Of a stretch of DNA of 15,542 bases, positions 130-14,725 are shown in pieces; the stretch's first letter is position 1; each line of letters starts with the position of its first letter. Position numbers and translations under genes: made by a program. The DNA comes from Myxococcales bacterium. Lineage in GTDB: Bacteria; Myxococcota; Polyangia; Polyangiales; Polyangiaceae. Under the pieces are notes generated by a model. It saw only the letters and a program-made list of their open reading frames with translations, was not told the origin of the DNA and did no database searches. The stretch is taken from the NCBI GenBank assembly GCA_020430865.1, contig JAGQIY010001255.1:1-15542 (forward strand). Reading direction: 5' to 3'.

Positions 130-146
130 TGGCACGCTCCCTGCTC
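130..146 (+). promoter_or_regulatory. Candidate sigma54 (-24/-12) promoter of the pgs operon
   Basis: The sequence reads TGGCACGctccCTGCTC. The -24 part, TGGCACG, matches the sigma54 consensus perfectly. GG (131-132) and GC (143-144) are separated by exactly 10 bases, as the -24/-12 class requires. The -12 part is CTGC rather than the commoner TTGC. The predicted transcript would start near 156, giving a leader of about 80 bases before the pgsB ATG at 236. A sigma54 activator gene with an intact GAFTGA loop lies 5.4 kb downstream on the same strand. Promoter activity is inferred from the match. Confidence 0.72.
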
Positions 147-235
147 TGCCGCGCGTCACCGGTGCTCCGGGCACCGCTCGAAGACGCACTTCCCTCGAGT
201 TCGTCACTCAACAGGACCTCCGAGAGTCACGCGAT

Positions 236-1453
236 ATGTCCACCTGGGCCTTGAGCCTGCCAACCGTGATTGGCGGGGCCAGCACGATCTTGTTTGGCCT
301 CGGCGTGGCTGAGGTGCTCCTGCATCGCAGGAACCTCGCCCGCATCCCGATCCGAATCCACGTCAACGGAACCCGCGGCAAGTCGAGCGTGACGCGCTTG
401 ATCGCCTCTGCGCTTCGCGAGTCCGGCCTGTGCACCTTCGCCAAGACCACCGGCACGCTTGCGCGGGTCATCCTGCCTGATGGCAGCGAGCTGCCAGTCT
501 TCAGGCCTGCGGGCGCCAACATCATGGAGCAGAAGCGCATCGTCGCCACGGCTCTGGCTTACCGCGCGGATGCGCTGGTCATCGAGTGCATGGCCCTGCA
601 GCCGGAACTCCAGGTGCTCAGCGAGCGGGGGCTGGTACGGGCCACCCACGCGGTGATCACCAACGCGCGCCCCGACCACCTGGACGTGATGGGGCCGGGA
701 CCGCGAGACGTCGCGCTTGCGCTTGCAGGCATGACCCCGGTTCGCGCCAAGTTGTTCACGCGCGAGCAGGAGCATCTCGACGTGCTGCAGGCCGCCGCCA
801 AGGATCGCAAGAGCGAGCTTTTCGCGGTGGACGACGCAGCGGTCGAAGACATCGACGAGGCGACCCTCGCGCGCTTTGGCTACACCGAGCACCGGGAGAA
901 CATCGCGCTCGCCCTGAGTGTGGTGGAGTCCCTCGGGGTGAGCCGCGAGGTGGCTCTGCGCGGGATGGCGAAGACGCCGCCTGACCCCGGCGCCCTGACG
1001 GTCCACGAACTCGACTTCTTCGGCAGACGCATCGTGTTCGTCAACGCCTTCGCGGCCAACGACCCGGTCAGCAGCGGTCAGCTCTGGCACCTGATGGTCC
1101 AGCGGTTTCCCGACGTGGACACGCGCGTCGCGATCTTCAACTGCCGCGCGGACCGCGCCGACCGCTCGCTCCAGCTCGCCGACGCGCTCAAGGACTGGAC
1201 GACGCCCGACCACATCGTGCTCATGGGAAGCGGGACCTATGCCTTCGCGCGCGCGTTCGAGCGGCACGGCGATCCCGCCAAGGTCGTCTTCGTGGAGGGT
1301 TACCGTACGGAAGAGATATTCGAGCGCGTGATCGGCCTGAGTGGCCGCTCTGCGCTCATCGTGGGTCTGGGGAACATCGGCGGGCAGGGTCTGCCGCTGG
1401 TGTCCTTCTTTGCGAATCGCGCGCCGCCGCAAGACGCGGCCAACGGAAGTTAG
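236..1453 (+). CDS. pgsB: Poly-gamma-glutamate synthase PgsB (CapB-like amide ligase)
   Basis: PgsB/CapB is the membrane-associated, ATP-dependent ligase that polymerises glutamate through gamma-amide bonds. The 405-residue product is close to the usual family length of about 390-400. A hydrophobic N-terminal segment at about 10-30 anchors it. A Mur-ligase-type P-loop follows (HVNGTRGKSS, about 42-51), then the family signatures VIECMALQPE (115-124) and ITNARPDHLDVMGP (141-154), and a glycine-rich VGLGNIGGQG near the C-terminus. The frame stays open upstream to 44. I chose ATG 236 because family similarity starts here and the candidate promoter at 130-146 lies inside the longer version. The stop is 6 bases before pgsC. 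Identification is firm; the start is probable. Confidence 0.93.
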   Translation: MSTWALSLPTVIGGASTILFGLGVAEVLLHRRNLARIPIRIHVNGTRGKSSVTRLIASALRESGLCTFAKTTGTLARVILPDGSELPVFRPAGANIMEQKRIVATALAYRADALVIECMALQPELQVLSERGLVRATHAVITNARPDHLDVMGPGPRDVALALAGMTPVRAKLFTREQEHLDVLQAAAKDRKSELFAVDDAAVEDIDEATLARFGYTEHRENIALALSVVESLGVSREVALRGMAKTPPDPGALTVHELDFFGRRIVFVNAFAANDPVSSGQLWHLMVQRFPDVDTRVAIFNCRADRADRSLQLADALKDWTTPDHIVLMGSGTYAFARAFERHGDPAKVVFVEGYRTEEIFERVIGLSGRSALIVGLGNIGGQGLPLVSFFANRAPPQDAANGS

Positions 1454-1459
1454 CGGAGT

Positions 1460-1915
1460 ATGGAAGAGTTTCTACCCCTGTCGATCGGGGTCGGTCTGTT
1501 CGTGAGCCTGATCCTCGCGGAGCTTTTCGGGATCGCGGCGGGCGGGATGATCGTGCCTGGCTACATCGCCCTGCACATCACGCGCCCCGTCGACATCTTG
1601 CTCACCTTGGTGGCGGCTTTCGCGACCTACCTGGTGGTCCACACCGCGAGCGCCTTCGTGCTGATCTTCGGTCGACGGCGCACGGTCCTGATGATCCTGG
1701 TTGGCTTCCAGATGGGGATCCTGGTCAGTTGGGTGGCTCCCCAGCTGAGCTTCGTGCATGGCATCGAGGGACGTGCCGTCGGCTACATCATCCCCGGCCT
1801 GATCGCGATCTGGCTGGATCGGCAGGGAGTCGTCGAGACCCTGAGCGCGATGACCGTGGCCAGCGTGCTCGTCCGCATGACGCTCATCTTGCTCGGTCTG
1901 GAGCTCGGGACATGA
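1460..1915 (+). CDS. pgsC: Poly-gamma-glutamate biosynthesis membrane protein PgsC (CapC-like)
   Basis: This 151-residue, very hydrophobic protein matches PgsC/CapC in size (about 149 residues) and in its hallmark repeats AGGMIVPGYIAL (about 27-38) and GYIIPGLIAI (about 108-117). I expect four or five membrane helices with a short basic loop (GRRR) near residue 71. PgsC forms the membrane complex with PgsB that synthesises and translocates poly-gamma-glutamate. GGAG sits only one base before the ATG. With a 6-base gap after pgsB, translation probably depends on reinitiation. Its TGA overlaps the ATG of the next gene (ATGA at 1912-1915). Confidence 0.93.
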   Translation: MEEFLPLSIGVGLFVSLILAELFGIAAGGMIVPGYIALHITRPVDILLTLVAAFATYLVVHTASAFVLIFGRRRTVLMILVGFQMGILVSWVAPQLSFVHGIEGRAVGYIIPGLIAIWLDRQGVVETLSAMTVASVLVRMTLILLGLELGT

Positions 1916-3048
1916 AGAAGATCTACTGGCGTCCTCCGAGTGTCTCGCGTCGGGCGCTGGCGCTGATTGCCGCCGTGGCCTTGATCGGTCTGAGCCTGGT
2001 CGAGACCTTCCCGCAGGAGCGAAAGCAGTCATTCCACAAGGAGAAGCTGGCGGCGGCGCAACTGGCGCGAACCGCGATGGGACGGATCAAGGAAGAGAAG
2101 CAGCGCCGCGGCATCACCATCGACCGCGAGTCGGATCCTGCTGGTACGGGCCTCATCGGTCACGCGGTGACCCCCGTGACCTCCAACACTGGCTACATAG
2201 AGAGCAAGCAGACCAGCACGAACCCGAACTTCGCGGCGGTCGTGGTGCACCTGCTCAAGCGCGCGGGAGTGGAAAACGGCGACGTCGTAGCGGTCGGGCT
2301 GAGCGGTTCGTTTCCCGGCCTGAATGCCTCGACCTACGCGGCCCTGGAGGTGCTGAAGGCCAAGGCCATCGTGATCGCCAGCGCGGCCTCCTCCGAGTGG
2401 GGAGCAAACGACGTGGAGCTGATGTGGCTCGACATGGAGCAGGTGTTGTTCGACGCCAAGCTGATCAGCTTTCGCGCCACGGCGGCGTCTCGGGGAGGCA
2501 TCGACGATCGTGGCTTCGGCCTGTCGCCGGAGGGCCGCCACCTGATCGATGCCCTGATCGAGCGCCGGGGCATACACAAGCTGACCCCCAAGAACCTCAC
2601 CGACTCGGTCGACCAGCGCATGCAGATCTACCGAGATCAAGCCGGGGATCGCCCGATCAAGGCCTACATCAACATCGGCGGTGGCGCTGCCTCCACGGGG
2701 ACTCACGTCGGGAAGAAGCTATTCAAGCCAGGCCTGAACACCGACGTGCCGTACGGCGCGATCGACTCGGTGATGCTGCGCTTCGCCCAGGATGGTGTGC
2801 CCGTGATCCACCTCTCGAACGTGAAGGTGATCGCCGAGCGCTACGGCTTGCCCATCGCCCCGCAGGAGCCGCCGCAGGTGGGCGTGTCCCGCGTGTTCGT
2901 GCGCGCAGAGTATGATGAGCGCCTGGTGGTAGGCGTGATCCTGGCGGTCGGCCTGGCCATGTTCGCCTTTCTGCGCCTGGATGTGGGGCTGCGGATCCTG
3001 GGAAGGCGGCGCGAAAGCAGCCACGCCCACCCGCAACGAATGGTATGA
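1912..3048 (+). CDS. pgsW: Poly-gamma-glutamate system protein (PgsW-like)
   Basis: This 378-residue protein resembles the family annotated as poly-gamma-glutamate system protein, which accompanies pgsB-pgsC in bacteria outside Bacillus. It has an N-terminal membrane helix (about 15-31) after a basic start, a large globular middle, and a second helix (about 337-356) followed by a basic tail (RRR), so both ends should be cytoplasmic and the middle periplasmic. Visible conserved-looking segments are GLSGSFPGLN (129-138), ASAASSEWGAN (156-166) and NIGGGAASTGTH (254-265). The biochemical role of the family is not known to me. The frame is open upstream to 1729, but the ATGA overlap with pgsC and the signal-anchor-like N-terminus fix ATG 1912. 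No PgsA/CapA homologue is visible in the window. Confidence 0.85.
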   Translation: MKKIYWRPPSVSRRALALIAAVALIGLSLVETFPQERKQSFHKEKLAAAQLARTAMGRIKEEKQRRGITIDRESDPAGTGLIGHAVTPVTSNTGYIESKQTSTNPNFAAVVVHLLKRAGVENGDVVAVGLSGSFPGLNASTYAALEVLKAKAIVIASAASSEWGANDVELMWLDMEQVLFDAKLISFRATAASRGGIDDRGFGLSPEGRHLIDALIERRGIHKLTPKNLTDSVDQRMQIYRDQAGDRPIKAYINIGGGAASTGTHVGKKLFKPGLNTDVPYGAIDSVMLRFAQDGVPVIHLSNVKVIAERYGLPIAPQEPPQVGVSRVFVRAEYDERLVVGVILAVGLAMFAFLRLDVGLRILGRRRESSHAHPQRMV

Positions 3049-4352
3049 AGGTGGGAGTGACCGCCAAAGGCACTCTCAGATCTCGTCAGCGACTGGGCAA
3101 GTATCGCATCGAGCGCCAGCTCGCCGAGGGGGGCTTCGCGACGGTGTATCGCGCAATGGACACCGTCGAGGGGATCCGTGTGGCGCTCAAGGTGCCTCGC
3201 GCAGAGCTGGTCGCTGGGCGTGAAGCCCAGGTGACCCATGAGGTGCGACTGGCTGCGCGGTTGGATCATCCCAACGTGCTCCCGGTGAAGAATGCTCAGC
3301 AAATCGATGGTGTGTTCGTCATCGCCTACCCCCTCGGTGAGAAGACCCTCGGCGATCGCATGGCCCGAAGGCTCTCGGCCAAGCGCGCCCTCGAGTATTT
3401 CGAGCAGATGCTCGAGGCAGTGGCTCATGCGCACAAGAACAAGGTCATCCACTGCGATCTGAAGCCCGAGAACTTCATCCTGTTCCGTGGGGATCGGGTG
3501 CGCTTGACCGACTTCGGGATCGCCAAGATCGCGCTCGCCACGCGCTCGTTGAGCGGCTCCGGCACCATCGGCTACATCGCTCCAGAGCAGGCGCTCGGGC
3601 GGCCCAGCCTGCGTAGCGACGTCTTCTCGCTGGCGTTGATGGCGTACCGGATGTTCACCGGCGAGTTGCCGGAGTGGCCGTTCAAGTGGCCGCCCCCGGG
3701 CATCGCCAAGCTGCGCGCCACGATCCACCCCGACTTCGTCGAGCTGTTGCGGCGCTGCCTGGAGGTGGACGAGAAGAAGCGACCAGCGGACGCGACCAAG
3801 GTGCTCGCCGCCTTTCGCCGACTGCGATCTCGAGCGCTCAAGCCGGGCGTGAAGAGGAAGCGCACCTCCAGCAAGCTAGCCTCGCCCAGCGCGTGGCGCA
3901 CCGTGCGCTTGAAGGAGTTCCTGCGGCGCTACGGCAAGCCGCTGCAGACTCGCGCCAACTGCGAGCAGTGCCACGGCCCGACGGCAGAGAGCATGTTGTG
4001 GTGCCCCTGGTGTGGGAAGAGCCGCGCCAAGTACGCCGGACCATCCGAGTTCAAGGCGCGCTGTCAACGCTGCGGGCGTGGACGCAAACCCGACTGGCGC
4101 TACTGCGCCTATTGCTGGGGGCCCGCGTTCAAGCAAATTTCCGAGCGGAGATACTCGGACAAGCGCTACACGGCGCATTGCGAGCACTGTGCCGGAGGCC
4201 TGATGCCATTCATGCGCTACTGCCCGTGGTGTCATCGCAAGGTAGTGCAGAAGTGGGAGGTGCACGCTGGCAACCGCTGCAAGGGCTGCGGCTGGGGTGT
4301 CCTGGACGACTACTGGGACTTCTGCCCGTGGTGCGGGAGGCGACGCCGGTGA
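3045..4352 (+). CDS. Ser/Thr protein kinase with four C-terminal zinc ribbons
   Basis: The 435-residue protein starts with a Hanks-type kinase domain (about 20-260): glycine loop AEGGFATV (27-34), ATP-binding Lys49 in ALK, alpha-C Glu66, catalytic loop HCDLKPEN (136-143), DFG (156-158) and APE (179-181). All catalytic residues are present. The Arg before the catalytic Asp is Cys137, so this is a non-RD kinase. A basic linker (about 261-300) leads to four CxxC...CxxC zinc-ribbon modules: Cys306/309/320/323, 340/343/354/357, 379/382/393/396 and 412/415/427/430, several with CPWCG knuckles. There is no membrane segment, so it should be cytoplasmic. ATGA overlap with pgsW and GTGA overlap with the phosphatase place it inside the pgs operon. 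Its substrate is unknown. Confidence 0.93.
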   Translation: MKVGVTAKGTLRSRQRLGKYRIERQLAEGGFATVYRAMDTVEGIRVALKVPRAELVAGREAQVTHEVRLAARLDHPNVLPVKNAQQIDGVFVIAYPLGEKTLGDRMARRLSAKRALEYFEQMLEAVAHAHKNKVIHCDLKPENFILFRGDRVRLTDFGIAKIALATRSLSGSGTIGYIAPEQALGRPSLRSDVFSLALMAYRMFTGELPEWPFKWPPPGIAKLRATIHPDFVELLRRCLEVDEKKRPADATKVLAAFRRLRSRALKPGVKRKRTSSKLASPSAWRTVRLKEFLRRYGKPLQTRANCEQCHGPTAESMLWCPWCGKSRAKYAGPSEFKARCQRCGRGRKPDWRYCAYCWGPAFKQISERRYSDKRYTAHCEHCAGGLMPFMRYCPWCHRKVVQKWEVHAGNRCKGCGWGVLDDYWDFCPWCGRRRR

Positions 4353-5176
4353 CGACCCGCTGCCTCTACACCGCAGAGGTGTTGACGGCCGCGGTCGGGT
4401 TTGCGTTGAGTCACGGCGTCGCGAGCGCGTTCACCCGACCCAGCCCGGTGCCCGTCGAGCGCGTGAACGAGGACAGCCTCTTGATCTTCGACGACGAGAG
4501 CGGCCCCGTGGTGCTCGCGGTGGCGGACGGAGCGGGGGGGCACCCGGGAGGTGCCGACGCCTCCAAGGCCGCGGTCCGAGCGCTGGCTCAAGCCCTGGAG
4601 ACGTCTCGGGAGGGCAACCGTCGAGACGCGATCCTCGACGGCTTCGAAGCCGCTAACCGCGCGGTAATGAACCTCGGTATCGGCGCGGCGACCACGCTGG
4701 CCGTCGCCGAGGTTGGGCGCGACTGGGTGCGCAGCTACCACGCCGGGGACTCCGGCGTGCTGGTGACCGGCCGACAGGGCAAGCTCAAGCTGGTCACCCT
4801 CAGTCACGCTCCCGTGGCCTACGCCGTCGAGGCAGGCTTCATCGACGAGGAGGACGCGCTCATCCACCGCGACCTCAACGTGGTGAACAACCTGATCGGG
4901 TTCGCGGATCTGCGCATCGAGATTGGTCCGCGCCGGCTGCTGAAGCGCTTCGACACCGTGGTCGTGGCGAGCGATGGCCTGTTCGACAACCTGCGCCAGC
5001 AAGAGGTCGCGAGCCATGTACGCGCAGGGCCCCTGGCGGCCTGCGCCCAGTCGCTGATCGGCCTCTGCACCCAGCGCATGCAGGAGACCGATGCGGACCT
5101 GCCGGGCAAACCGGATGATCTCTCCTTCGTGCTGTTCCGTCGCGCGGGAGTCGGGGAGAAGCCCGCCAGCGCCTGA
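4349..5176 (+). CDS. PP2C-family Ser/Thr phosphatase
   Basis: This 275-residue protein is a compact PP2C (PPM) metal-dependent phosphatase of bacterial size. Motifs in order: NED (40-42), ADGAGGHPGG (59-68, with metal ligand Asp60), GAATTLA (112-118), HAGDSGVLV (131-139), SDGLFDN (208-214) and PDDLSFVLF (255-263, second metal-binding Asp). No membrane segment or extra domain is seen. The reading frame is open back to 3674 in another frame of the kinase gene, but GTG 4349 overlaps the kinase stop as GTGA and the domain begins soon after, so that start is preferred. It presumably reverses the action of the adjacent kinase. It is the last gene of the five-gene pgs unit. Confidence 0.92.
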   Translation: MTTRCLYTAEVLTAAVGFALSHGVASAFTRPSPVPVERVNEDSLLIFDDESGPVVLAVADGAGGHPGGADASKAAVRALAQALETSREGNRRDAILDGFEAANRAVMNLGIGAATTLAVAEVGRDWVRSYHAGDSGVLVTGRQGKLKLVTLSHAPVAYAVEAGFIDEEDALIHRDLNVVNNLIGFADLRIEIGPRRLLKRFDTVVVASDGLFDNLRQQEVASHVRAGPLAACAQSLIGLCTQRMQETDADLPGKPDDLSFVLFRRAGVGEKPASA

Positions 5177-5184
5177 GCTTGACC

Positions 5185-5210
5185 TGCGCAGGCCGTGCAC
5201 ACGCTGCGCA
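5185..5210 (+). promoter_or_regulatory. Candidate upstream activator site (phased palindromes)
   Basis: TGCGCA (5185-5190), GTGCAC (5195-5200) and TGCGCA (5205-5210) are each perfect palindromes with centres exactly 10 bases apart, so they lie on one face of the helix. The group centres about 112 bases before the start predicted for the promoter at 5283-5299, within the usual range for enhancer sites of sigma54 activators. That this is the binding site of the activator at 5648 is inference. I did not find the same motif clearly repeated before the pgs promoter. Confidence 0.35.
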
Positions 5211-5282
5211 AGCTCCGTTGCCAGGACACGGGGCAGACGCTGAAGCGCCGCACATTTCGCTGGCCTCGCGCCAGGCGCCTCA

Positions 5283-5299
5283 CGGCACGAAACCTGCTT
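5283..5299 (+). promoter_or_regulatory. Candidate sigma54 (-24/-12) promoter of the orphan-activator unit
   Basis: The sequence reads CGGCACGaaacCTGCTT. GG (5284-5285) and GC (5296-5297) have the required 10-base spacing, and only the first base departs from TGGCACG. The predicted start near 5309 gives a leader of about 50 bases to ATG 5360. It shares the GGCACG and CTGCT elements with the promoter before pgsB, which suggests co-regulation. The genes downstream include a sigma54 activator, so autoregulation is plausible. Confidence 0.65.
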
Positions 5300-5359
5300 A
5301 TTGGACTGGGGTGTCGGCTCGGGGGTGAGGACCAGCGATGCGCGACCGAGGACCAAGCC

Positions 5360-5644
5360 ATGATTGTATCTCTGGATGTGGCGCAGCGGATCCGCGCTGA
5401 GTTGCTGCGCGTGAAGCGCCTGCGGGACGGGGTGCTGGCGGCCGCGCGAGCGGGCGATGGACAGCGCACCCTCGCCGGCGCCGAGGAACTCGGGCGTGCG
5501 CTCGACGACACCCTGGGGCTGGTGGACGCCGTGCTGGACGCCGTCGAGGAGGATCACCCATCGGGCCTCCGACCCCAGCCGGCGTTGCCGCGGGTCCCCA
5601 GGGTCTCCGCTCAGCGAGGTCTGCGAGCCAAGCAGGGGGGCTGA
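5360..5644 (+). CDS. Small hypothetical helical protein (94 aa)
   Basis: I do not recognise this protein. The first 60 or so residues look helical and amphipathic, alternating Leu/Val/Ala with Arg, Glu and Asp (for example RIRAELLRVKRLRDGVL and LGLVDAVLDAVEED). The last 30 are Pro/Arg/Gly-rich and probably disordered. There is no signal peptide, membrane segment or cysteine pair. ATG 5360 is preferred over the upstream in-frame start at 5195 because it has a well-spaced GAGG and the longer form would contain the candidate promoter. It ends 3 bases before the activator gene, so the two are probably co-transcribed. It could be a small partner of the activator or of the kinase; that is a guess from position. 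Confidence 0.6.
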   Translation: MIVSLDVAQRIRAELLRVKRLRDGVLAAARAGDGQRTLAGAEELGRALDDTLGLVDAVLDAVEEDHPSGLRPQPALPRVPRVSAQRGLRAKQGG

Positions 5645-5647
5645 GGC

Positions 5648-7135
5648 GTGAGCCTGGACGAGGCCGCTCCCGAGTCGCTCACGCAGGTAAATCCGGCGGA
5701 AGCCACGAACCCGTGGTCAAGCACGGCCCGCTCTCGGCATAGTGACGCCGAGATGACCGCGATTCGTGTGCTCGCTGTCGGGGTCTCACCCGAAGTGACT
5801 CGAAGCCTGCAAGGCTACGACCTCAGTCGGCTCGACCACGACGACCACCTGGCATCGGGCATCGAACAGCTCGATCCCGAGGTGCTGGTGATCGACCTGG
5901 GCGCACTGGGCGAGCCCGGCCTCCAGACGCTGCGCGCCGCGCGTCGCCGCTGTCCCGGAGCTGGCTTCGTGGCGTTGCTCACGGACGCATCTCACCCTCG
6001 CGCGGCGCTCGAGGCGGGAGCAGACGTCTTCATCGGTCGAGACAGCGCCGCTGATTGCGTCGACGTCGTGGTGACTCGCGCCTTCGACAAGGTGCGCGCC
6101 GCGCGGCGTGCCGCGCGGTTCGAGCGCGTCGCCCAGGATACCCTGAGCCTCGCGGCCTTCGAGCGCATCCTCGGCAACCATCCGCTGATGCAGCAGCTCT
6201 TGACCAAGGTCGCCCATGTCGCGCCGACCCGCTCCACCGTCTTGATCCATGGGGAAAGCGGCACCGGCAAGGAGCTGATCGCCAGCGCGCTGCACTACAA
6301 CTCCCGACGTCGCGAGGGCCCCTTCGTACGGCTCAACTGCGCGGCGCTGGCGGACTCGGTGCTCGAGAGCGAGCTCTTCGGTCACGAGAAGGGCGCCTTC
6401 ACCGGTGCGATCGCCCGGCGCGAGGGACGCTTCAAGCAAGCGGACAACGGCAGCCTGTTCCTGGACGAGGTGAGCGAGATCCCGATGCCGCTCCAGGTGA
6501 AGCTCCTCCGTTTCCTTCAAGAGCGTGAGTTCGAGCGGGTCGGTGGCAACGAGACGTTGAAGGTCGACGTGCGGATCATCGGCGCCACGAACCGGGATCT
6601 GAAGGCGCTGGTGGCGGATGGTAGATTCCGCGAGGATCTATACTATCGGCTGAACGTGGTGCGCCTCGACGTCCCTCCGCTGCGGGCGCGACCGAGCGAC
6701 ATCCTGCTGCTGGCAGAGCACTTCTTGCGGCGCTTCGCTGAAGAGAACGAGCGGCCCGCGGCGGCGACCGATGAGAGCGCGCGGCGCTTGCTGGTCGACT
6801 ACCCCTGGCCCGGCAACGTGCGGGAGCTCGAGAACGCCATGGAGCAGGCGGTCGTGCTCGCCGAGGGCGACACGCTGAGCGCCTCCGACTTGCCGCTCAG
6901 CATGCCCAGCTCCCAGGACAACGGCATCAAGCTGATGATCCCGGGGGTCACCATGGCCGAGATCGAACGCTTCGCCATCCTCCAGACCCTCAAGGCAGTA
7001 GGCGGATCGACGAGCCAGGCGGCTCGAGTGTTGGATATCAGCCGTCGCACGATACAGTACCGCCTGAAGGAATGGGGAATCGAGGACAAGGCCGGTGGGT
7101 ACGAAAACTCGCCCAGCGAGTCGGCAGAGGACTGA
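5648..7135 (+). CDS. NtrC-family sigma54-dependent activator with degenerate receiver
   Basis: The 495-residue protein has a disordered N-terminus (1-35), a receiver-like domain (about 36-150), an AAA+ sigma54 activation domain (about 172-410) and a Fis-type helix-turn-helix (about 450-477). The AAA+ part is complete: Walker A GESGTGKE (202-209), GAFTGA loop (249-254, contacts sigma54), Walker B SLFLDE (269-274), ATNRDL, and NVRELEN. The receiver keeps an Asp at the phosphorylation position (Asp83, in VLVIDLGALGEPG) and Thr112. It lacks the N-terminal acidic pair (VLAVGVSPE instead of VVDDD) and the conserved beta5 Lys, so ordinary phosphorelay control is doubtful. GTG 5648 follows AGGGGGG by about 7 bases; ATG 5753 (MTAIRV) is an alternative start that still keeps the receiver. 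Likely targets are the two sigma54 promoters in this window. Confidence 0.92.
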   Translation: MSLDEAAPESLTQVNPAEATNPWSSTARSRHSDAEMTAIRVLAVGVSPEVTRSLQGYDLSRLDHDDHLASGIEQLDPEVLVIDLGALGEPGLQTLRAARRRCPGAGFVALLTDASHPRAALEAGADVFIGRDSAADCVDVVVTRAFDKVRAARRAARFERVAQDTLSLAAFERILGNHPLMQQLLTKVAHVAPTRSTVLIHGESGTGKELIASALHYNSRRREGPFVRLNCAALADSVLESELFGHEKGAFTGAIARREGRFKQADNGSLFLDEVSEIPMPLQVKLLRFLQEREFERVGGNETLKVDVRIIGATNRDLKALVADGRFREDLYYRLNVVRLDVPPLRARPSDILLLAEHFLRRFAEENERPAAATDESARRLLVDYPWPGNVRELENAMEQAVVLAEGDTLSASDLPLSMPSSQDNGIKLMIPGVTMAEIERFAILQTLKAVGGSTSQAARVLDISRRTIQYRLKEWGIEDKAGGYENSPSESAED

Positions 7136-8202
7136 GTCTCAACGTTCGCCCGACCGAGGCTGCGGAGACCAAGCGCGGCCTACCGCCCGGCACGATCGTC
7201 TACACCGGCGAGGAGCGAGACGACCCGGTTCGCATCCGAGCGTTCGAGTTCGACTCCGATCGGCTCTCCGAGCGCGAGGTGAGTCCCGAGGCGGTGGGGC
7301 GCATCAGGCGCACCCCCAACAAGGTGCTGTGGCTCGACGTGGAGGGGGTGCACGACGTCCAGGTGCTCCAGGAGATCGGCAAGCTGTTCGAGCTTCACGA
7401 CCTGGTGCTGGAGGACATCGCCTCGGTCGGGCAGCGTCCGAAATTCGAGGGCTACGATGACTACGCCTACATCGTGCTCCGGATGCTGCACCGCCAGCCT
7501 GATGAGGGCGTGATCGACGAGCAGCTGTCCATCGTGCTCGGCCGAGGGTTCGTGCTCACCTTTCAGGAGCACCGCGGCGATGTCTTCGACGCGCTTCGCG
7601 AGCGTATCCGCACCGATCGCGGTCGCATCCGCCAGCAAGGCGCGGACTACCTCGCATATCGCTTGATCGACGTCACCGTGGATGGCTACTTCGATATCCT
7701 TGCGGATATGGACGACCAGATCGATGAGCTGGAGGAGGTCGTGCAGAGCAAGGCCAGCGGCGCTTCGATCCAGCAGGTCTACGCGATCCGTCGCGAGCTG
7801 GTCACCCAGCGTCGGGTCGTCTGGCCCCTGAGGGAAGTCGCCGCGTCGCTCGCCCGGGACGAGGTCGACCTGATCGGCGACTCGCTCAACCCCTACCTGC
7901 GCGACCTCCAAGACCACGTGGCGCGCGTGCTCGACCTGATCGAGTCCTTGCGTGAGAACGCTGATGGCCTGGTCGAGCTTGGACACAGCATCCAGGGACA
8001 GCGCCTGAACGAGGTGATGAAGCTCCTGACCATCATCAGCACGGTGTTCATCCCACTGAGCTTCATCGCGGGCCTCTACGGCATGAACTTCGACTACATG
8101 CCCGAGCTCCACTGGCGCTGGGGCTATTTCGCGGCGCTCGGCGCGATGCTCAGCGTGAGCCTGGGCCTGCTGTTCTACTTCCGCCGTCGGCACTGGCTCT
8201 AG
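7072..8202 (+). CDS. corA: CorA-family magnesium/cobalt transport protein
   Basis: The 376-residue protein is a pentameric inner-membrane Mg2+/Co2+ channel of the Thermotoga-type CorA class. Segments shared with that class include GLPPGTIVYTG (36-46), LVLEDI (111-116), QRPKFE (121-126), the WPLREV helix (251-256) and GMN in GLYGMNFDYMPELHW (335-348). A large cytoplasmic funnel precedes two membrane helices (about 316-336 and 351-370), and the protein ends in the basic RRRHWL. Its ATG overlaps the activator gene by 64 bases. Family similarity starts near residue 35, so translation could begin later. No ATG and only weak non-ATG starts occur between, so I kept 7072. Overlap suggests co-transcription with the activator. 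Confidence 0.92.
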   Translation: MGNRGQGRWVRKLAQRVGRGLSLNVRPTEAAETKRGLPPGTIVYTGEERDDPVRIRAFEFDSDRLSEREVSPEAVGRIRRTPNKVLWLDVEGVHDVQVLQEIGKLFELHDLVLEDIASVGQRPKFEGYDDYAYIVLRMLHRQPDEGVIDEQLSIVLGRGFVLTFQEHRGDVFDALRERIRTDRGRIRQQGADYLAYRLIDVTVDGYFDILADMDDQIDELEEVVQSKASGASIQQVYAIRRELVTQRRVVWPLREVAASLARDEVDLIGDSLNPYLRDLQDHVARVLDLIESLRENADGLVELGHSIQGQRLNEVMKLLTIISTVFIPLSFIAGLYGMNFDYMPELHWRWGYFAALGAMLSVSLGLLFYFRRRHWL

Positions 8203-8238
8203 CCCGTCGAGCCCGTCCGCCAGGGCGATCGGCGAGGG
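8203..8238. other. Short convergent intergenic gap, possible weak terminator
   Basis: corA (+) and the rimK-like gene (-) converge here, 36 bases apart. Short inverted repeats exist: AGCCC (8201-8205 or 8210-8214) can pair with GGGCT (8236-8240), and GCCC (8211-8214) with GGGC (8223-8226). There is no T-run on either strand, so any terminator role is uncertain. Confidence 0.25.
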
Positions 8239-9453
8239 CTACGACTCGGGATCGGGAGGTGGCTGGATCGTCGCCCCTGGGAGATCCTGCTTGCGTAGCT
8301 TGCGCGAGCGGCGGCGCTTGCGCTTCGGCAGCAGGGCGCGCATCTCTTCCAGCTTGCCGAAGCACAGCAAGCGATCGTGAGCCTTCAGCTCCCGGCTGCC
8401 CTTGGGGTTCGGGATCAGCTTGTCTCGGCGCTCCAGCTTGAGCACCACGATGTCCTTCTCCCTCAGTCCACAGGCGTCGATGGACTTGCCGACGAGCTCG
8501 GAGTCCTTGGGCACCATCAGCTCCGCGACGCCATAGCCCTTGGTCACGGTCAGGCGCTGACGCAGGTCGAGTTCCGGGAACGCGACCTGATCCTCGATGT
8601 ACTGGATGATGGTGTCCGCGATGTCGAGGTTGGTCGCGGTCTCGATACCCTGGAGGCCGGGTGAAGAGTTGACCTCCATCACCTTCGGGCCGTCGTGTCC
8701 CTCGAGCATGTCCACGCCCGCCATCTTGAGGCCCATGATCTGAGCGGCCCGCACCGCCGTACGCTCGTACTCCGGCTCGAGCTCGACCAGCTCCGCCTTG
8801 CCGCCGCGGTGGACGTTGCTGCGAAACTCGCTCCCCTGCGCCACGCGGCGCATCGCCGCCACCACGCGATCGCCCACGACGAAGGCGCGGATGTCCTTGC
8901 CGCGACTCTCGGAGACGAAACCCTGGATGAGGACGTTCTGCTTGGCGCTGTGCAAGGTCTCGATGATGGCCTCCGCCACCTTCATCGTTTCCGCCAGGAT
9001 CACGCCAACGCCCTGGGTGCCCTCGAGCAGCTTGATGATCACCGGCGCGCCGCCGACGCGGATGATGGCTGGCAGGATGTCACTTCGATCGCGCACGAAC
9101 GTGGTCGGCGGGATGCCGATGTCATGACGGCTCAGCATCTGCAGTGAACGCAGCTTGTCGCGACTGTTGCTGATGCCGTTGCTGGAGTTCAGGCAGAAGA
9201 CGCCCATCTGCTCGAACTGCCGCACGACCGCGGTTCCGAAGTAGGTGATGCTCGCGCCGACGCGGGGGATGATCGCGTCGTAAGTCGAGAGGCGCTTGCT
9301 CCTGAAGTACAGCTCCGGGTGCTCGCGCTCGAGGGAGATGGCGAAGTTCGTCGTGTCGAGCACCAGCGCCTTGTGGCCACGCTGCTGAGCGGCGCGCTTC
9401 AGGCGACGCGTGCTGTACGAGTCTCGAGCTCGGGAGAGGATGGCGATCTTCAT
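8239..9453 (-). CDS. rimK: RimK-like ATP-grasp glutamate ligase fused to an RCK_C domain
   Basis: Residues 1-292 of this 404-residue protein are a RimK-type ATP-grasp ligase: MKIAILSR start, NSRDKLRSLQML (96-107), Lys141 in VIIKLLEGTQGVGV, RGKDIRAFVVGD (184-195), and Mg-binding EVNSSPGLQGIE (260-271). RimK ligates glutamate residues, classically onto ribosomal protein S6. Residues about 302-374 (KGYGVAELMVPKDSELVGKSI to RLLCFGKLEEM) look like an RCK_C/TrkA-C ligand-binding domain. A strongly basic stretch (KRKRRRSRKLRK) and a Pro-rich tail follow. Classic RimK is about 300 residues and lacks this extension. ATG 9453 (AAGG about 10 bases upstream) gives the family start; GTG 9525 would add 24 unrelated residues. 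It lies 139 bases downstream of the RimB-like gene on the same strand. Confidence 0.9.
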   Translation of the reverse strand: MKIAILSRARDSYSTRRLKRAAQQRGHKALVLDTTNFAISLEREHPELYFRSKRLSTYDAIIPRVGASITYFGTAVVRQFEQMGVFCLNSSNGISNSRDKLRSLQMLSRHDIGIPPTTFVRDRSDILPAIIRVGGAPVIIKLLEGTQGVGVILAETMKVAEAIIETLHSAKQNVLIQGFVSESRGKDIRAFVVGDRVVAAMRRVAQGSEFRSNVHRGGKAELVELEPEYERTAVRAAQIMGLKMAGVDMLEGHDGPKVMEVNSSPGLQGIETATNLDIADTIIQYIEDQVAFPELDLRQRLTVTKGYGVAELMVPKDSELVGKSIDACGLREKDIVVLKLERRDKLIPNPKGSRELKAHDRLLCFGKLEEMRALLPKRKRRRSRKLRKQDLPGATIQPPPDPES

Positions 9454-9592
9454 CGCGACAGACCTTGGCGGTGCCCGTTCTGAGGATGGCGAGGACAGTG
9501 GGCGCTCGGTCCGCGGCGGGCTCACGAGCGACTGGGATCGGCGCCTGGCGCGGGCGCGTTGCCCAATTGATCACCGAGGTGCGCCACGGACG

Positions 9593-10063
9593 CTAGCTGG
9601 GTTTCTTCTTTTGGGGGTGAGGGGGGCGCTTCATACCGCCAGGCTTGCCGCACAGGTAGCGTTTCGACACGTCCACCAGGAAGTCGCGCTCGAGGGCCGT
9701 GCGTCCGATCAACATGCGGCACAACATGTCACCTCGAGAGACGAGGGAGAGCTCGATCTGCTTCGTCACACTTCCGAGGCGCAGGGTCGTGAGCACCACG
9801 TGCCGGTGCTGGAGCTGCCCTGTGGATGGCCGCACCCGGCTGACGCGCACGGGACTTGCAATCACGTGCTTGAAGCGACCGCTGCGGTCCAGCACCACGT
9901 CGAAGGCCAAGCGCCCGCTCGGTAGCTCACGGATGTGCTCGACGTGCAGCGAACTGGTCCTGGCGCCGGTGTCCACCTTTGCCAGCACACCCCCGATGTC
10001 CCAGTCAGGCAGCGCGACGTACTCGCGCCAGCCAACGAGCTGCTTCGGCTCACTTCGCGCCAT
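9593..10063 (-). CDS. RimB-like retropepsin-fold peptidase (putative ATP-dependent zinc protease family)
   Basis: This 156-residue protein belongs to the family annotated as putative ATP-dependent zinc protease (Pfam Zn_protease), now seen as retropepsin-like. The catalytic-Asp motif is KVDTGARTSSLH (29-40), and the second conserved segment is CRMLIGRTALERDFLVD (115-131). Family members are commonly paired with RimK-type ligases, as in Pseudomonas rimB-rimK, where the peptidase acts on the ligase/S6 system. That arrangement is seen here. The C-terminus is basic (KRPPHPQKKK). GGAG lies 4 bases before the ATG. A 28-base hairpin (10080-10107) sits 16 bases upstream of the start codon and could affect expression. 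Confidence 0.85.
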   Translation of the reverse strand: MARSEPKQLVGWREYVALPDWDIGGVLAKVDTGARTSSLHVEHIRELPSGRLAFDVVLDRSGRFKHVIASPVRVSRVRPSTGQLQHRHVVLTTLRLGSVTKQIELSLVSRGDMLCRMLIGRTALERDFLVDVSKRYLCGKPGGMKRPPHPQKKKPS

Positions 10064-10079
10064 GCGTCTCCAGAAGAAT

Positions 10080-10107
10080 GCTCCCCACGCCGCCCGGCGC
10101 AGGGAGC
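10080..10107 (-). terminator. Strong intercistronic hairpin, candidate terminator after the A2M gene
   Basis: On the - strand, GCTCCC-TG-CGCC, loop GGGC, GGCG-TG-GGGAGC form a 12-pair stem with a four-base loop. The two central pairs are G-U wobbles and the rest are Watson-Crick. It is followed by ATTCTTCT, a weak T-tract. It lies 37 bases after the A2M stop and just before the RimB-like gene, so it could end A2M transcripts or act as an attenuating leader structure. Confidence 0.5.
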
Positions 10108-10144
10108 ACGCTAGTACCCACCGCTCGACTTGTCGATTGCTTCG

Positions 10145-13100
10145 TCAGCGCACGGTCTGACTCTGCGAGGTGGAGAAGGCCCACACCGCGGGGTCGTACA
10201 TCGCCTCTGCTCGCGCAGGCGGACGTACGAAGCGTCCGCTCCGAGTCGCGCGCACCAGGTACTCCGCCTCGCGAGTCCCTGCGGGGAACCAGTCGGCGAA
10301 GAACGTCACGCGCTCGTCGTGGAGTTCACGCCAGTTCCAGATCCAGCTGCCGTCGACGTCCGCCGCTCGGGTCGCTGTCTTGAGTCGCGTGTCGATGGCT
10401 TCGAAGCCTGCGGGAAGCGCGTCCTGCACCGCGATCTGAGCGCGCGGCTGTGGACTCGAGACCGACAGCCGGACCTTCAATAGCTGCCCTTGCTTGACGT
10501 CCGTCACTGGCTGGGAGGTCTCGGCGTCGAGGAGTGTGCGGGTCACCGTCAGGCCGTGCTCCTCGGGTTGCTTGCCCAGCTCCGTGTCGACGAAGCGCAG
10601 GAGCGCGCTGTAGCGGGGCGTGCCGCCCCGTGCTTCCAGCCGCAACGCGAGGGTCTTGCCCGGCGCAGGCAGGTCTCTCGCGTCGATCTCGAAGCGCCGA
10701 GTGGGATGCGTCGCGTCAAGCGTGGCGCTGCCGATCCGCTTGTCTCCAAGGAACACGTCGACGAGCCCACGCCCGTCGCCGGCGGAGTGCTCCGCGTAGC
10801 TCGTCAGCGCGTAGAGCGCCCAGAGGTTGTTGTAGGTGGTCCCCCAGCTGCCGTCGGGTGCGCGCTTGCTCAGTACGCCCAGCACCAGCGGCTCGGCCTG
10901 CGCCAGCTTGCCTGCGTCGACCAGCGCCCGCACGCTGATCGCCGTCGAGCGCAGGTCCTTGCCGTAGGAGAAGGTGTCCAGCTCCTTCAACTCCGGGACG
11001 AGCGCGCCTCCACCGGGCGTCGTCTGCCTGGCTTGCTCGAGCGCGGAGACGAGGGCCGAGCCCTCTGGCTTGCTCGCGAGCGCGGTGCCGAGCAGCCCAG
11101 CGGCGAAGCGGGAGAGCCCCTGCGTGCCGGCCAGGCGCTTGCCGAGTCCGCTGTCTTCCCGGGAGCTGTCTGCGAAGACGAACGCAGCAAAGGGCTTCGT
11201 CTCCAGACTCGAGAACTGTCCGTGCATGTCGTCGCCGTCCTCCATGTGCTGCTTCAGGTAACCGAAGCCGCGCTCGATTATACCTCGAGCAACCGAGTAG
11301 CCATGGCTCTTCGCCGTGGTCAGGCCCCACAGCGCATAGGCGGTGAGGAAGCCCTCGGAGTCCGAGCTCGGCCAGAGCCCGAAGCCGCCGTCCTGATTCT
11401 GGTGCTCCAGGACGTGGGCGATCGCCGCGTCCATGCGCCTGTGATGCGCTGAACCCGAGAGGCGGCTATCTCCGGAGCGTCGCATCAGCTCCTCGAGCAT
11501 GACCAGGGGAATGAGGCGCGAGGTCGTTTGCTCCACACATCCGTGCGGATATTCCAGCAGGGAATCGATGCCACCTTGAAGGGACGCCAGGACCGAAGAC
11601 GAGAGAGACAGCTCCAGGCTGCCGACGCCGCTCTGCGCGCTGTCTGGCATCTTGATCGCGACGCTGGCCGATTTCTCGATCCTGCCATCTCCGACCAAGA
11701 GCTTCGTGTAGGGCAGCCTCGGCTGCACCGGGATCGTCACCTTCACGGCGTCCTGATCCGCGCCCGCCTCGAGCCGCGCCTTGACCACGAGGTCGCCGGG
11801 ATGCTCGGCCTTCACGCGGAACTTCAGGGCGCGCTGGCCGTCGGGGGTGAGGTCGAACTCGCGCTGGCTCTCACCGTCGATGCTCGCTGGCATCTGGCTC
11901 TTGGAGCCGGACTCCAGGCTCAGGCGGAACTTCGCCGGCCGACCCTTGCCCGCCTGTTCGTGAACCACGAAGCCGAGATCCGCGGTGTCGCCAACGGTCA
12001 GGAAGCGGGGCAGCGCGGGGACCACCTGGACCCGCTTCTTGGTGGTGATGCTGGCTTCGCTGCGACCGAAGCGCTGGCCCGCGTCGGCCGCCGCCGCCAT
12101 CACGCGCCAGCGAGTGAGGTTGTCGGGAAGCGGTAGCTTGACGCGGGCCTTGCCAGAGCGGTCGGTGACCACCCCGCGCTTGGAGAAGAACGCGGTGCCG
12201 AGGAAGCGTGAACGAAACGCACCCTCACCCCCACCCCCGCCGTAGTCGCCGCCGGTGTTGTCCCAGTAGAGCGGGTCCGGAGACACGAAGCGCATCAAGC
12301 TGCTCGAGCTGCGGACGTCGATGTCGTGCTCGGCATAGAGCGGCGCGAAGGGATCTGGCGTCTGATAGCCGGTCAGCATCAGCACGCCCTCGTCCGCTGC
12401 CCAGAGCGTGACCTCGGCCGACGCCGGGTGACCAGCCTGATCCTTCACCAGCACATCGACCAACGCCTCTTGGCCAGGTTCGTAGATCTGCTTCAGTGGC
12501 TTCAGCTCGACCTTCAGCCGTCGCTCCTCCGGACTCACCTCGAGGTTCGTATATCCCATACGGAAAGGTGCGCCTGCGGATGGTCCGCCGCGGTTCTGTC
12601 TGAATGATACGGCGGCCACCGAGACGAAGACGTTGGGCAAGTGCCGAGCGGCCAGGGGCACCTCGACCGGGCGCTCGGCGCCCTTCAGCTCCGTGGTGTA
12701 GGCGCTGATGATCCCTTCGCGCTCCAGGGTCACCAGCGCGGTGGATTTCGCGAAGGGTGAAGCCACGAACAGCTTGGCGGTATCTCCGGGAGCGTAGCTC
12801 TGCTTGTCTGCCTGGATGGACATCCGCGGATTGTTGTCCGCAGCGCCGTAGGCGCCGCCGCCGTACGCCCACACCCGCGTCTCCGCGTAGGCCTGCTCGC
12901 CTGCGATGCGAGCCTCTACGCGATAGTCTCCCCCCGCCGGCAGCGCGAAGTGGACGCGCGAGGCGGTCGCGCTGGCCTTCACGCGCTTGGTCTCCACGAC
13001 GTCTTCCTCCCAGCCCCCGCGGTAGCGGCTGCCGTAGCTGGTCTCCTCGGTGTAGCTCTTCCAGTAGCGACGATGCAGCGTGACTTCGATCGCCTTGCCC

Positions 13101-14725
13101 GCTGCAGGCGCTCCGTCCGGCTTCTGCGCTAGCACCTCGATGTCCCAGCCGCGCGTCGGGTTCACGGCCCAGCTGTCGTTCTTCAGCCCGACCGCGGCGC
13201 TGCCGGTGGCGCGCGGGATCGCGACCTGGGTGCTGACGCTGTCGCCCCCGGCGTCGCTGACGTCGGCGTTGATCACCAGATCGATGGTCTGCGAAATTTG
13301 TTCCTCGCGGATTAGATCGGGGCTGATCTGGATCTTGCCGTTGCCTTGTTCGTCGAGCTCGAGGTCGGCGTCGATGCGCTGGACGGAGCTCGTCCCGGAG
13401 CCGTTGCCGAAGCTGAATCCGGCGTCGTTGTAGCTCTGGTGCTGCCTGGTACTGATCGAGTAGCGAACCTTGCCGCGCTTGACCGGGGCGCCCCACAGGT
13501 AGTTCGCGCTGACTGGCAGCACCAGGGTCCCGCCTTCGGCCTCATCGAGGGTGCCGCCGAGCTTCACCTCGAAGTGCGCGGCGCGGTACTTGCCAACCTC
13601 GAACGTGCTGCTCAGATCGCCCTTCCCCGAGGCGAGGCGCACGTGGTAGCTGCCAAGGCGGGAGCTCGTGGGTAGCTTCAGGTCAGAGCGCAAGGTGCCG
13701 AAGCGGGTCGGTCGGAGCGTCTTCTTCAGGACCTCATTTCCGTCGGGATCTCGAACGCTCAGCTCGAACGCGCCGCGCGGCACCTGCAGCTTGCCCCGGC
13801 TGTCGCGCTTGCGCAGGACGCCGAGCAGGTTCACCGTCTCGCCGGGGCGGAAGATCCCGCGCTCCGCGGTGACGATGCCGCGCAGACCCTCGGCGTCCTC
13901 CCAGTAGGAGCTGGGGAGACCGTAGCTCCAGGTGTCCACGCCGTCGCTCCAGCGCTCGCTCTGCAGGGCCAGCGCGTGGCTGGTCTCCGCGCGCACCACC
14001 AGCGGCTGCTCGGCGTCCTTGTTGGCGCTCGGCAGGTAGAGCCGGGAGCGCGCGGGCAACTTCAAGATCCCCGAGGTATCCGTGTAGCCGGTGAAGCGCA
14101 CGCTCTGACCCTGGGTGATCGTCACCCGCGCTGCGGCTTGAGGTTTCCCGTCACTCGTGCGCGTGACCCAGACGAGGCCGCTCTGAGCGCCGAGCTTCAG
14201 CAAGCTCGCCAGGCCGCCACGCTGAACGACGCTGGCTCTGCTGTAGGTTCCCGGAGCCTCGAGCACGACGAACAGCAGCTCGGCGCGCTTGCCCCCGGGT
14301 CCCTTGACCGCGACGAAGGGGTCCAGCTCGACGCGCGTCTCGAGGCGCGGATCCTCGGCGGCCACGACGCGGGTGGTTGCGCGCGCAGAGAACTGGCGTC
14401 CGAGCTTCCCGAGCACGTCTTCGAAGGGGCCGTGGTCGCCCACGTACTTGCTCACGTGGGTGAACTCGGCGGTGCTGATCGGCACCACCCGCAGCCGGGC
14501 GCTCTCCACGCCCTTGATCAAGATCGGCAGCTTGCCTGCGGGCCCTAGCACGACCTGACCCGTTGGCATATTGATGCTCGGCGGCGGGAGGTTCTGCTCT
14601 TGGCTGGTGGCAGGCAGTAGCTCCTCCTGCACGCCGTCGATGGACTCGTTGGTGGGACTGGTCTCGCACCCCAGGAAGCAGAGCGCGAGGCTCAGGGTCC
14701 ACAGGCTGTTGGTTCGCATGCTCAT
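10145..14725 (-). CDS. Bacterial alpha-2-macroglobulin lipoprotein (YfhM-like)
   Basis: This 1526-residue protein is a periplasmic protease trap. The signal peptide (SLWTLSLALCFLGC) ends in a lipobox-like FLGC with Cys20 as lipid site. Macroglobulin beta-sandwich domains follow, including the MG2-type ERGIFRPGETV (288-298). The bait region lies about 795-845 and contains a five-glycine run near 829. The A2M-domain signature LPLPDNLTRWRVMA starts near 862. The thioester motif GCVEQ (Cys1063, Gln1066) is intact. A helical toroid domain and a C-terminal receptor-like domain complete it. It is near E. coli YfhM (1653 residues) in size. The ATG overlaps the pbpC stop as ATGA, the classic A2M-PBP1C pairing. 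AAGGA is better spaced (8 bases) for the ATG at 14719, two codons later. Confidence 0.95.
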   Translation of the reverse strand: MSMRTNSLWTLSLALCFLGCETSPTNESIDGVQEELLPATSQEQNLPPPSINMPTGQVVLGPAGKLPILIKGVESARLRVVPISTAEFTHVSKYVGDHGPFEDVLGKLGRQFSARATTRVVAAEDPRLETRVELDPFVAVKGPGGKRAELLFVVLEAPGTYSRASVVQRGGLASLLKLGAQSGLVWVTRTSDGKPQAAARVTITQGQSVRFTGYTDTSGILKLPARSRLYLPSANKDAEQPLVVRAETSHALALQSERWSDGVDTWSYGLPSSYWEDAEGLRGIVTAERGIFRPGETVNLLGVLRKRDSRGKLQVPRGAFELSVRDPDGNEVLKKTLRPTRFGTLRSDLKLPTSSRLGSYHVRLASGKGDLSSTFEVGKYRAAHFEVKLGGTLDEAEGGTLVLPVSANYLWGAPVKRGKVRYSISTRQHQSYNDAGFSFGNGSGTSSVQRIDADLELDEQGNGKIQISPDLIREEQISQTIDLVINADVSDAGGDSVSTQVAIPRATGSAAVGLKNDSWAVNPTRGWDIEVLAQKPDGAPAAGKAIEVTLHRRYWKSYTEETSYGSRYRGGWEEDVVETKRVKASATASRVHFALPAGGDYRVEARIAGEQAYAETRVWAYGGGAYGAADNNPRMSIQADKQSYAPGDTAKLFVASPFAKSTALVTLEREGIISAYTTELKGAERPVEVPLAARHLPNVFVSVAAVSFRQNRGGPSAGAPFRMGYTNLEVSPEERRLKVELKPLKQIYEPGQEALVDVLVKDQAGHPASAEVTLWAADEGVLMLTGYQTPDPFAPLYAEHDIDVRSSSSLMRFVSPDPLYWDNTGGDYGGGGGEGAFRSRFLGTAFFSKRGVVTDRSGKARVKLPLPDNLTRWRVMAAAADAGQRFGRSEASITTKKRVQVVPALPRFLTVGDTADLGFVVHEQAGKGRPAKFRLSLESGSKSQMPASIDGESQREFDLTPDGQRALKFRVKAEHPGDLVVKARLEAGADQDAVKVTIPVQPRLPYTKLLVGDGRIEKSASVAIKMPDSAQSGVGSLELSLSSSVLASLQGGIDSLLEYPHGCVEQTTSRLIPLVMLEELMRRSGDSRLSGSAHHRRMDAAIAHVLEHQNQDGGFGLWPSSDSEGFLTAYALWGLTTAKSHGYSVARGIIERGFGYLKQHMEDGDDMHGQFSSLETKPFAAFVFADSSREDSGLGKRLAGTQGLSRFAAGLLGTALASKPEGSALVSALEQARQTTPGGGALVPELKELDTFSYGKDLRSTAISVRALVDAGKLAQAEPLVLGVLSKRAPDGSWGTTYNNLWALYALTSYAEHSAGDGRGLVDVFLGDKRIGSATLDATHPTRRFEIDARDLPAPGKTLALRLEARGGTPRYSALLRFVDTELGKQPEEHGLTVTRTLLDAETSQPVTDVKQGQLLKVRLSVSSPQPRAQIAVQDALPAGFEAIDTRLKTATRAADVDGSWIWNWRELHDERVTFFADWFPAGTREAEYLVRATRSGRFVRPPARAEAMYDPAVWAFSTSQSQTVR

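Follow-up and report, generated by a model that had tools for sequence, protein, structure and literature searches.

A Ser/Thr kinase–PP2C phosphatase pair found beside amino-acid ligases in two bacterial phyla, and adjoining predicted poly-gamma-glutamate synthase genes in one myxobacterial lineage

The subject of this analysis is a 15,542-base contig from an uncultured Myxococcales bacterium (JAGQIY010001255.1, assembly GCA_020430865.1; hereafter the window), in which the poly-gamma-glutamate synthase genes pgsB, pgsC and pgsW are followed directly by genes for a zinc-ribbon Hanks-type Ser/Thr kinase and a PP2C-type phosphatase. The kinase and phosphatase form a module of their own, which occurs without pgs genes in both Myxococcota and Planctomycetota, and whose neighbours include ATP-grasp ligases of the RimK or glutathione-synthetase-like kind, accompanied by a peptidase, more often than chance predicts. 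Together, these observations suggest that the pair, where it stands beside such ligases across bacteria, is an unstudied on/off switch for amino-acid-joining enzymes. Judged from sequence, the parts themselves are of known kinds, and what appears to be new is the coupling of the pair to pgs and its cross-phylum link to ATP-grasp ligases.

The kinase–PP2C pair and its ligase neighbours

The kinase gene (positions 3045–4352, forward strand) was assigned from Pfam matches (PF00069, 123 bits; PF12773), its translation and a family alignment. The translation contains the invariant lysine (ALK), the HCDLKPEN motif and the DFG motif that mark a Hanks-type kinase, and K49, D138, K140, N143 and D156-G158 are conserved in an alignment of 48 sequences. 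The window protein is of the HCD kind instead of the HRD kind; at least 33 of the aligned sequences carry HCD and at least 11 HRD. Its C-terminal tail possesses eight CxxC motifs, and therefore four predicted zinc ribbons. The phosphatase gene (4349–5176, forward strand; PF13672, 63.9 bits, cut-off 24) overlaps the kinase gene by GTGA, and the metal-binding aspartates of its product (D60-G61, D209-G210 and D256-D257) are conserved across 31 aligned sequences, that of the window among them.

Full-length relatives of the kinase (E <= 1e-100) were found in 14 of 294 genomes, and then in 19 of 392 genomes of a larger, overlapping draw, from the phylum of G239 and G411, taken as Planctomycetota (G239 is the genome of locus L022, Pirellulaceae). 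A further 16 of 329 genomes were positive in the phylum of G001 (Co_bin.42, titled Polyangia), taken as Myxococcota, and looser relatives (E <= 1e-60) were present in 16 of the 144 genomes in the class of G001. In 27 of 42 loci the kinase gene has a PP2C gene next to it, on the same strand in 23, and the two are likewise neighbours in three of five loci fetched later. Gene starts are approximate, since they come from a home-made caller, and the kinases of two loci (L190 and L205) were missed by this caller and recovered by a six-frame search. Because PP2C stands beside the kinase in most of these loci and pgs genes are found in the window alone, kinase and PP2C form a stable pair, for which pgs is a rare partner.

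After PP2C, the widest-spread shared neighbours of the kinase loci are ATP-grasp ligases of the RimK or glutathione-synthetase type (GSHS) together with a peptidase. The arrangements range from rimK-rimB-kinase-PP2C (L199) and kinase-PP2C-AstE-GSHS (L103) to MATCAP-GSHS-kinase-PP2C (L187), kinase-PP2C facing GSHS-MATCAP (L192), GSHS-AstE divergent from the kinase (L219), and rimB-rimK-astE some 6–7 kb from the kinase (L190). In the genome ACE_MYX1 (G076, locus L099), kinase-PP2C is convergent on rimK-rimB with no pgs adjoining; the kinase, PP2C, RimK and RimB proteins are 72, 65, 84 and 87% identical to those of the window, and pgsW lies about 0.64 Mb away on the same contig. Carboxypeptidases of the MATCAP/QEGLA type, a family named after tubulin tyrosine carboxypeptidase, are encoded near the kinase in three loci (L187 644–1828, L192 5010–6914 and L197 13835–15262), in two of them directly beside a GSHS-like ligase.

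The association was quantified with PF02955, which catches both RimK and glutathione-synthetase-like ligases, in 47 kinase-positive genomes, of which G001 was left out because its contig ends at the activator described below. A PF02955 copy lies within 5 kb of the kinase in six of 46 genomes (G076, G749, G133, G096, G372 and G390), or 13%, against 0.17 expected, or 0.4% (Poisson P 3e-8). Widening the distance to 10 kb gives seven of 46 against 0.31 expected. The expectation was calculated genome by genome from the number of PF02955 copies and the genome size, with sizes rounded and contig ends ignored. All six ligase-linked loci also carry a peptidase gene. The gene orders in these loci differ, which argues for repeated joining of the pair and the ligases. 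Mapped onto a quick tree of the kinases, the presence of a ligase requires six changes (L001 left out; seven if it is counted as ligase-free), at least three of which are forced by well-supported branches, and the ligase-linked kinases are not clustered. In an earlier enrichment test, a ligase or peptidase match was present in 11 of 42 kinase loci versus four of 89 control loci (Fisher P 6e-4), where one control, L156, had been chosen for its rimK, which works against the claim, and one kinase-locus match, in L102, is weak (39 bits). With five later kinase loci included, the count becomes 11 of 47.

Attachment of the pair to the pgs genes

The first five genes of the window, all above curated family or domain cut-offs, are pgsB (236–1453; Mur-ligase-type poly-gamma-glutamate synthase subunit, TIGR04012, 447 bits, cut-off 222.7; PF08245), pgsC (1460–1915; synthase membrane subunit, TIGR04011, 128 bits, cut-off 96.45; PF14102), pgsW (1912–3048; 'poly-gamma-glutamate system protein', TIGR04332, 323 bits, cut-off 100), the kinase and PP2C, all on the forward strand. 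The adjacent PgsB and PgsC both exceed their equivalog cut-offs. PgsB is a Mur-type ligase of a family that makes gamma-linked polyglutamate, which is the predicted product of the window PgsBC. As a first-pass annotation of the window had stated, the five genes are joined by junctions of four to six bases: pgsB and pgsC are separated by six nucleotides, and the next three junctions are four-nucleotide overlaps (ATGA, ATGA and GTGA).

A second species, represented by the metagenome-assembled genome Co_bin.42, retains much of this arrangement. Its contig L001 matches window positions 1963–7023 at 81% DNA identity and its contig L230 matches 7019–14116 at 80–85%; the two contigs meet at the same point, and the order is kept from pgsW on through orf94, the activator, corA, rimK and rimB. 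The counterpart covers pgsW onward, with pgsB and pgsC outside L001. Protein identities to the window are 92% for PgsW, 96% for the kinase, 88% for PP2C, 77% for orf94, 87% for the activator, 91% for CorA, 92% for RimK and 95% for the RimB-like protein. Since the genes overlap and the pgsW-kinase-PP2C part is kept in a second species, co-expression of pgsBCW with the kinase and PP2C is supported, in line with the first-pass proposal that these proteins are made together.

The same conservation does not extend to other pgs loci. Among the best 80 of 123 loci encoding PgsW, kinase-PP2C follows pgsW in one, L001, the congener of the window; in 11 of the 80, no more than 1.5 kb of contig follows pgsW, so that these loci provide only a partial test. 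A conserved pgs-kinase operon was rejected on this count. In the family of G001, pgsW is present in 23 of 108 genomes and the kinase (E <= 1e-100) in two of 108, and in the other of these two kinase-bearing genomes the pair and the pgs operon lie apart. Together, these observations imply that the pair is a portable module and not part of the self-contained pgs circuit first proposed, all the more as it is found without pgs in two phyla. The expectation that related genomes would share the gene order thus holds for Co_bin.42 from pgsW on and is not borne out at the other 79 loci, and the absence of the pair next to pgs in relatives, which had been named in advance as an outcome that would count against the circuit, is largely what was found.

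Other features of the pgs loci deserve mention. Co_bin.42 has two pgsW genes, and its second pgsBCW set (L013), 57–60% identical to the window proteins, is without the pair. Position 1548–6584 of L013 encodes a giant protein with FecR, VIT and VWA domains (Pfam), relatives of which occur on the pgsB-upstream side in six of the 80 loci (L013, L007, L012, L014, L018 and L035), and TerC-family membrane proteins are encoded in nine (L002, L003, L004, L007, L009, L013, L014, L018 and L035), in several of them soon after pgsW. Next to the pgs genes of L027 and L038 stand other kinases, which match the catalytic domain at 46 and 70 bits, respectively. No PgsA/CapA-type third component was matched among the window proteins scanned, where the contig opens 235 nucleotides before pgsB and the upstream side is thus unseen; pgsW stands in its place. 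PgsW has predicted N- and C-terminal helices and no Pfam domain, and its AlphaFold2 model is confident (pLDDT 85); no fold match to the PDB was obtained at E <= 0.001, the top TMq among the rows listed being 0.18, and no viral relatives were confirmed. Its C-terminus (window 3040–3048; L001–L080) frequently ends, after a variable tail, in the motif E-P/Q-M-V or -I, with MV or MI terminating the protein in 46 of the 80 loci; a docking or acceptor function of this motif is possible.

On the other side of the pair lie two genes on the reverse strand, rimK (8239–9525; convergent with the operon; ATP-grasp alpha-L-glutamate ligase with a C-terminal TrkA_C domain, PF08443 190 bits, PF02080, TIGR00768 256 bits, cut-off 143) and, upstream of it, a gene for a rimB-like retropepsin-type protease (9593–10063; PF05618, 76 bits, cut-off 27). 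RimK falls barely below the S6-ligase model NF007764 (328 versus 331 bits), and the RimB-like protein falls short of the RimB equivalog NF052261 (81 bits, cut-off 200). With pgsBCW, the gamma system, on one side and RimK-RimB on the other, the pair is placed between two glutamate-polymer systems.

These arrangements raise the possibility that the kinase-PP2C pair turns ligases of amino acids, mostly of glutamate, on and off by reversible Ser/Thr phosphorylation. At the window locus, RimK-RimB, the poly-alpha-glutamate or protein-glutamylation pair, would be the older partner; in this lineage kinase-PP2C would then have been coupled to pgsW through the ATGA overlap at the pgsW stop (ATGGTATGA), so that the gamma-polymer synthase, with its Mur-type ligase, may have become a second client or come under the same signal. 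Candidate substrates of the cytosolic kinase on the ligase side would be PgsB, the tail of PgsW, RimK and RimB, with PP2C reversing the modification; metal sensing or target binding may be the role of the zinc ribbons. Transcription of orf94 and the activator gene, and perhaps of pgsBCW, is probably carried out by a sigma54 holoenzyme under the control of the activator. The proposal as a whole, in which a portable on-off switch first served RimK-RimB at this locus and was later attached to the poly-gamma-glutamate synthase, is plausible from the gene arrangements, though we hold it with somewhat less than even confidence. Its general form is offered more tentatively: that a zinc-ribbon Hanks kinase with PP2C might be a widespread, undescribed module whose reversible Ser/Thr phosphorylation controls ligases of unrelated folds, both ATP-grasp enzymes of the RimK/glutathione-synthetase type and, at this locus, PgsB with its Mur-type fold, and which in this lineage ties alpha- and gamma-polyglutamate synthesis to one signal.

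Several observations weigh against the proposed switch. Only one lineage has pgs genes attached to the pair, and of the 42 kinase loci the window alone holds pgs genes. A kinase as neighbour by itself means little, because these bacteria have tens to hundreds of kinase candidates per genome in first-look counts. Of the 46 kinases, 11 are without the zinc-ribbon tail, including two of the six ligase-linked ones (G133 and G096). Furthermore, the ligase family was picked after the neighbourhoods had been seen and the genomes are not independent; no ATP-grasp ligase lies within 5 kb of the kinase in 40 of 46 genomes, some of whose contigs are short, and none of the five kinase loci fetched after the idea was formed has a ligase neighbour.

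Part of the same evidence could be accommodated if kinase-PP2C serves RimK-RimB, or neither system, and pgsBCW merely landed upstream, the shared transcript giving equal dosage with no regulation of the gamma-polymer. ACE_MYX1, with kinase-PP2C against rimK-rimB and no pgs, agrees with this, as does the absence of the pair from all of the 80 pgsW loci except L001. So does genome G227, in which pgsBCW faces rimK without the zinc-ribbon kinase, the only kinase nearby being a generic one (28% identical over the kinase domain) about 4.5 kb before pgsB; the rimK flank thus takes different neighbours. However, the kinase gene begins inside the pgsW stop in both species, an overlap kept through about 19% DNA divergence, and ATGA-type overlaps at the end of pgsW occur in four of the 80 loci, including L001. 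A landing of pgsBCW upstream of the pair without regulatory effect seems rather unlikely, although it is the most probable of the alternatives.

Sigma54-type sites, the activator and the remaining genes

Beyond PP2C lie orf94 (5360–5644, forward strand), encoding a 94-residue small protein of unassigned family that is 77% identical in L001 over 83 residues, and the sigma54 activator gene (5648–7135, forward strand). No Pfam or PADLOC match was found for orf94, nor an NCBIfam match for its longer form (5195–5644). The activator possesses an AAA+ sigma54 interaction domain with a GAFTGA loop (PF00158, 240 bits) and a Fis-type helix-turn-helix (PF02954), as expected of a bacterial enhancer-binding protein; its translation contains the GAFTGA and Walker motifs. 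The phosphorylatable receiver of an NtrC-type response regulator was not matched by Pfam (Response_reg, E 0.001), although NCBIfam models that include a receiver do align, starting at residue 53, with scores short of their cut-offs.

Two predicted sigma54-type sites share a GG-N10-GC core with near-consensus flanks. The first, TGGCACG-N4-CTGCT (130–145, forward strand), agrees with consensus at 11 of 12 positions and lies 91 nucleotides ahead of the pgsB ATG; the second, CGGCACG-N4-CTGCT (5283–5298, forward strand), precedes the activator unit and agrees at 10 of 12. Both promoters, and an activator in the next unit, had been read in the first-pass annotation, and all three were recovered here, while the number of such sites in the window is not above chance (four at <=2 mismatches versus 2.58 expected in shuffles). 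The PP2C-orf94 spacer is identical to that of L001 in only 112 of 187 aligned columns (60%), yet the block CGGCACGAAACCTGCTTA is unbroken. Because the second site sits in this longest conserved block of the spacer (18 of 18 nucleotides; permutation P 0.004), it is supported as a candidate promoter. Conservation of the first site is outside this comparison, since L001 starts inside pgsW.

Sites matching at 11 or 12 of 12 positions precede pgsB in five of 70 loci (window included) versus 0.18% of random stretches, and leader genes of the same loci carry them in six of 356 cases, two being pgsB itself. The excess before pgsB is thus modest and stems mostly from Planctomycetota-titled loci, so that a recurrent sigma54 site before pgsB is a weak candidate. 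Four loci (L042, L026, L068 and L076), three of them titled as Planctomycetota groups, have such near-perfect sites upstream of pgsB, and in L076 an activator gene lies just upstream as well. Nine pgsB upstream regions score at least 9/12; the window apart, none belongs to a locus with Polyangia, Polyangiaceae or Myxococcales in its title, and loci so titled score at most 8/12.

These data bear on the circuit of the first-pass annotation, in which the kinase and PP2C would act on the activator, which has no standard receiver, and the activator would drive both sigma54 promoters in a feedback loop on polymer synthesis. The activator gene is adjacent in both species, both sites share GGCACG-N4-CTGCT and the second is conserved, and the activator retains GAFTGA and Walker motifs with no Pfam receiver. 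However, none of the genes called around kinase-PP2C in ACE_MYX1 resembles the activator, and the Polyangia-, Polyangiaceae- or Myxococcales-titled loci do not exceed 8/12 upstream of pgsB. The activator's five best relatives elsewhere (57–65% identical, L130–L134) have no pgs, kinase-PP2C or corA adjoining, though one relative (L152) does lie beside an AstE-GSHS pair. Such a circuit is improbable.

Related activators (E <= 1e-100) occur in 96 of the 108 genomes in the family of G001. Nine larger regions were examined for activator context; the activator was called in seven, with neither kinase-PP2C nor corA adjoining in any, and a bond of the activator to pgs or kinase-PP2C in relatives was not seen in these contexts. 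Activator relatives about 8 kb (L149) and 11 kb (L150) from pgsB were taken as chance. The relative adjoining the AstE-GSHS pair lies at L152 4357–6311 and is 62% identical to the window activator; in L155, a weak GSHS-like match (46 bits) is some 4 kb from the activator.

A corA-type Mg/Co transporter gene of uncertain true start (7072–8202, forward strand; TIGR00383, 310 bits, cut-off 200.75) follows the activator, and beyond the rimK and rimB-like genes lie an alpha-2-macroglobulin gene and a truncated penicillin-binding-protein-like gene (Transpeptidase 23.3 bits, cut-off 22.1). That a conflict or defence module came by chance to lie near these genes is a very improbable reading of the pair: kinase-based PADLOC models do match the kinase (PD-T4-6 up to 175 bits; mad6 157 bits), but these matches span the kinase domain and leave the zinc ribbons uncovered, the NCBIfam MAD6 score of 130 is far from its cut-off of 460, and of the four window proteins scanned, kinase included, PP2C has one trace PADLOC match and orf94 and PgsW none.

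Significance and comparison with known systems

To our knowledge, little is known of the on/off control of bacterial polyglutamate ligases. Among the open-licence literature matches listed, no kinase/PP2C-controlled pgs or RimK system was found; a 2009 amidoligase survey outside that scope might describe such neighbourhoods. A kinase-phosphatase pair with such ligases as recurrent neighbours in two phyla, and apparently coupled here in translation to a poly-gamma-glutamate synthase, provides a small, testable enzyme-regulator set, at a locus predicted to bring two glutamate polymers, alpha and gamma, together.

The pair resembles the PASTA kinase/Stp1 PP2C pairs (PknB/Stk1) in that a Hanks-type kinase is encoded next door to a PP2C. 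It differs from them in that the window kinase has no PASTA match and carries zinc ribbons instead, scoring 146.5 bits against the Stk1/PknB cut-off of 450, and in that the PP2C scores 94.5 against 230. With the Bacillus PgsBCA(E)/CapBCA(E) operon the window shares PgsB and PgsC above equivalog cut-offs, adjoining in the same order; unlike that operon, whose counterpart here is unseen on its upstream side, it has pgsW third instead of pgsA/capA, kinase and PP2C appended, and a sigma54-type promoter-like site.

In the literature consulted, the post-translational control described is that of RimK by RimA, RimB and cyclic di-GMP. The Pseudomonas RimA-RimB-RimK polyglutamylation system (PMC11957791, PMC10092738) is similar to the window in combining rimK with a RimB-type protease, a glutamate ligase with its own regulators. 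It differs in that the window RimB-like protein is below the equivalog cut-off, kinase and PP2C lie nearby and RimK carries TrkA_C.

The window also resembles the PgsBCW (TIGR04332) systems found in Myxococcota, Planctomycetota and other groups, in which the order pgsB-pgsC-pgsW is found in 75 of the 80 loci; of the remaining five, four are cut by a contig end or have no match, and one (L070) differs in order. The window departs from these systems after pgsW, where 79 of the 80 loci, 11 of them on the short contigs noted above, have no kinase-PP2C and where the exception is its close relative L001.

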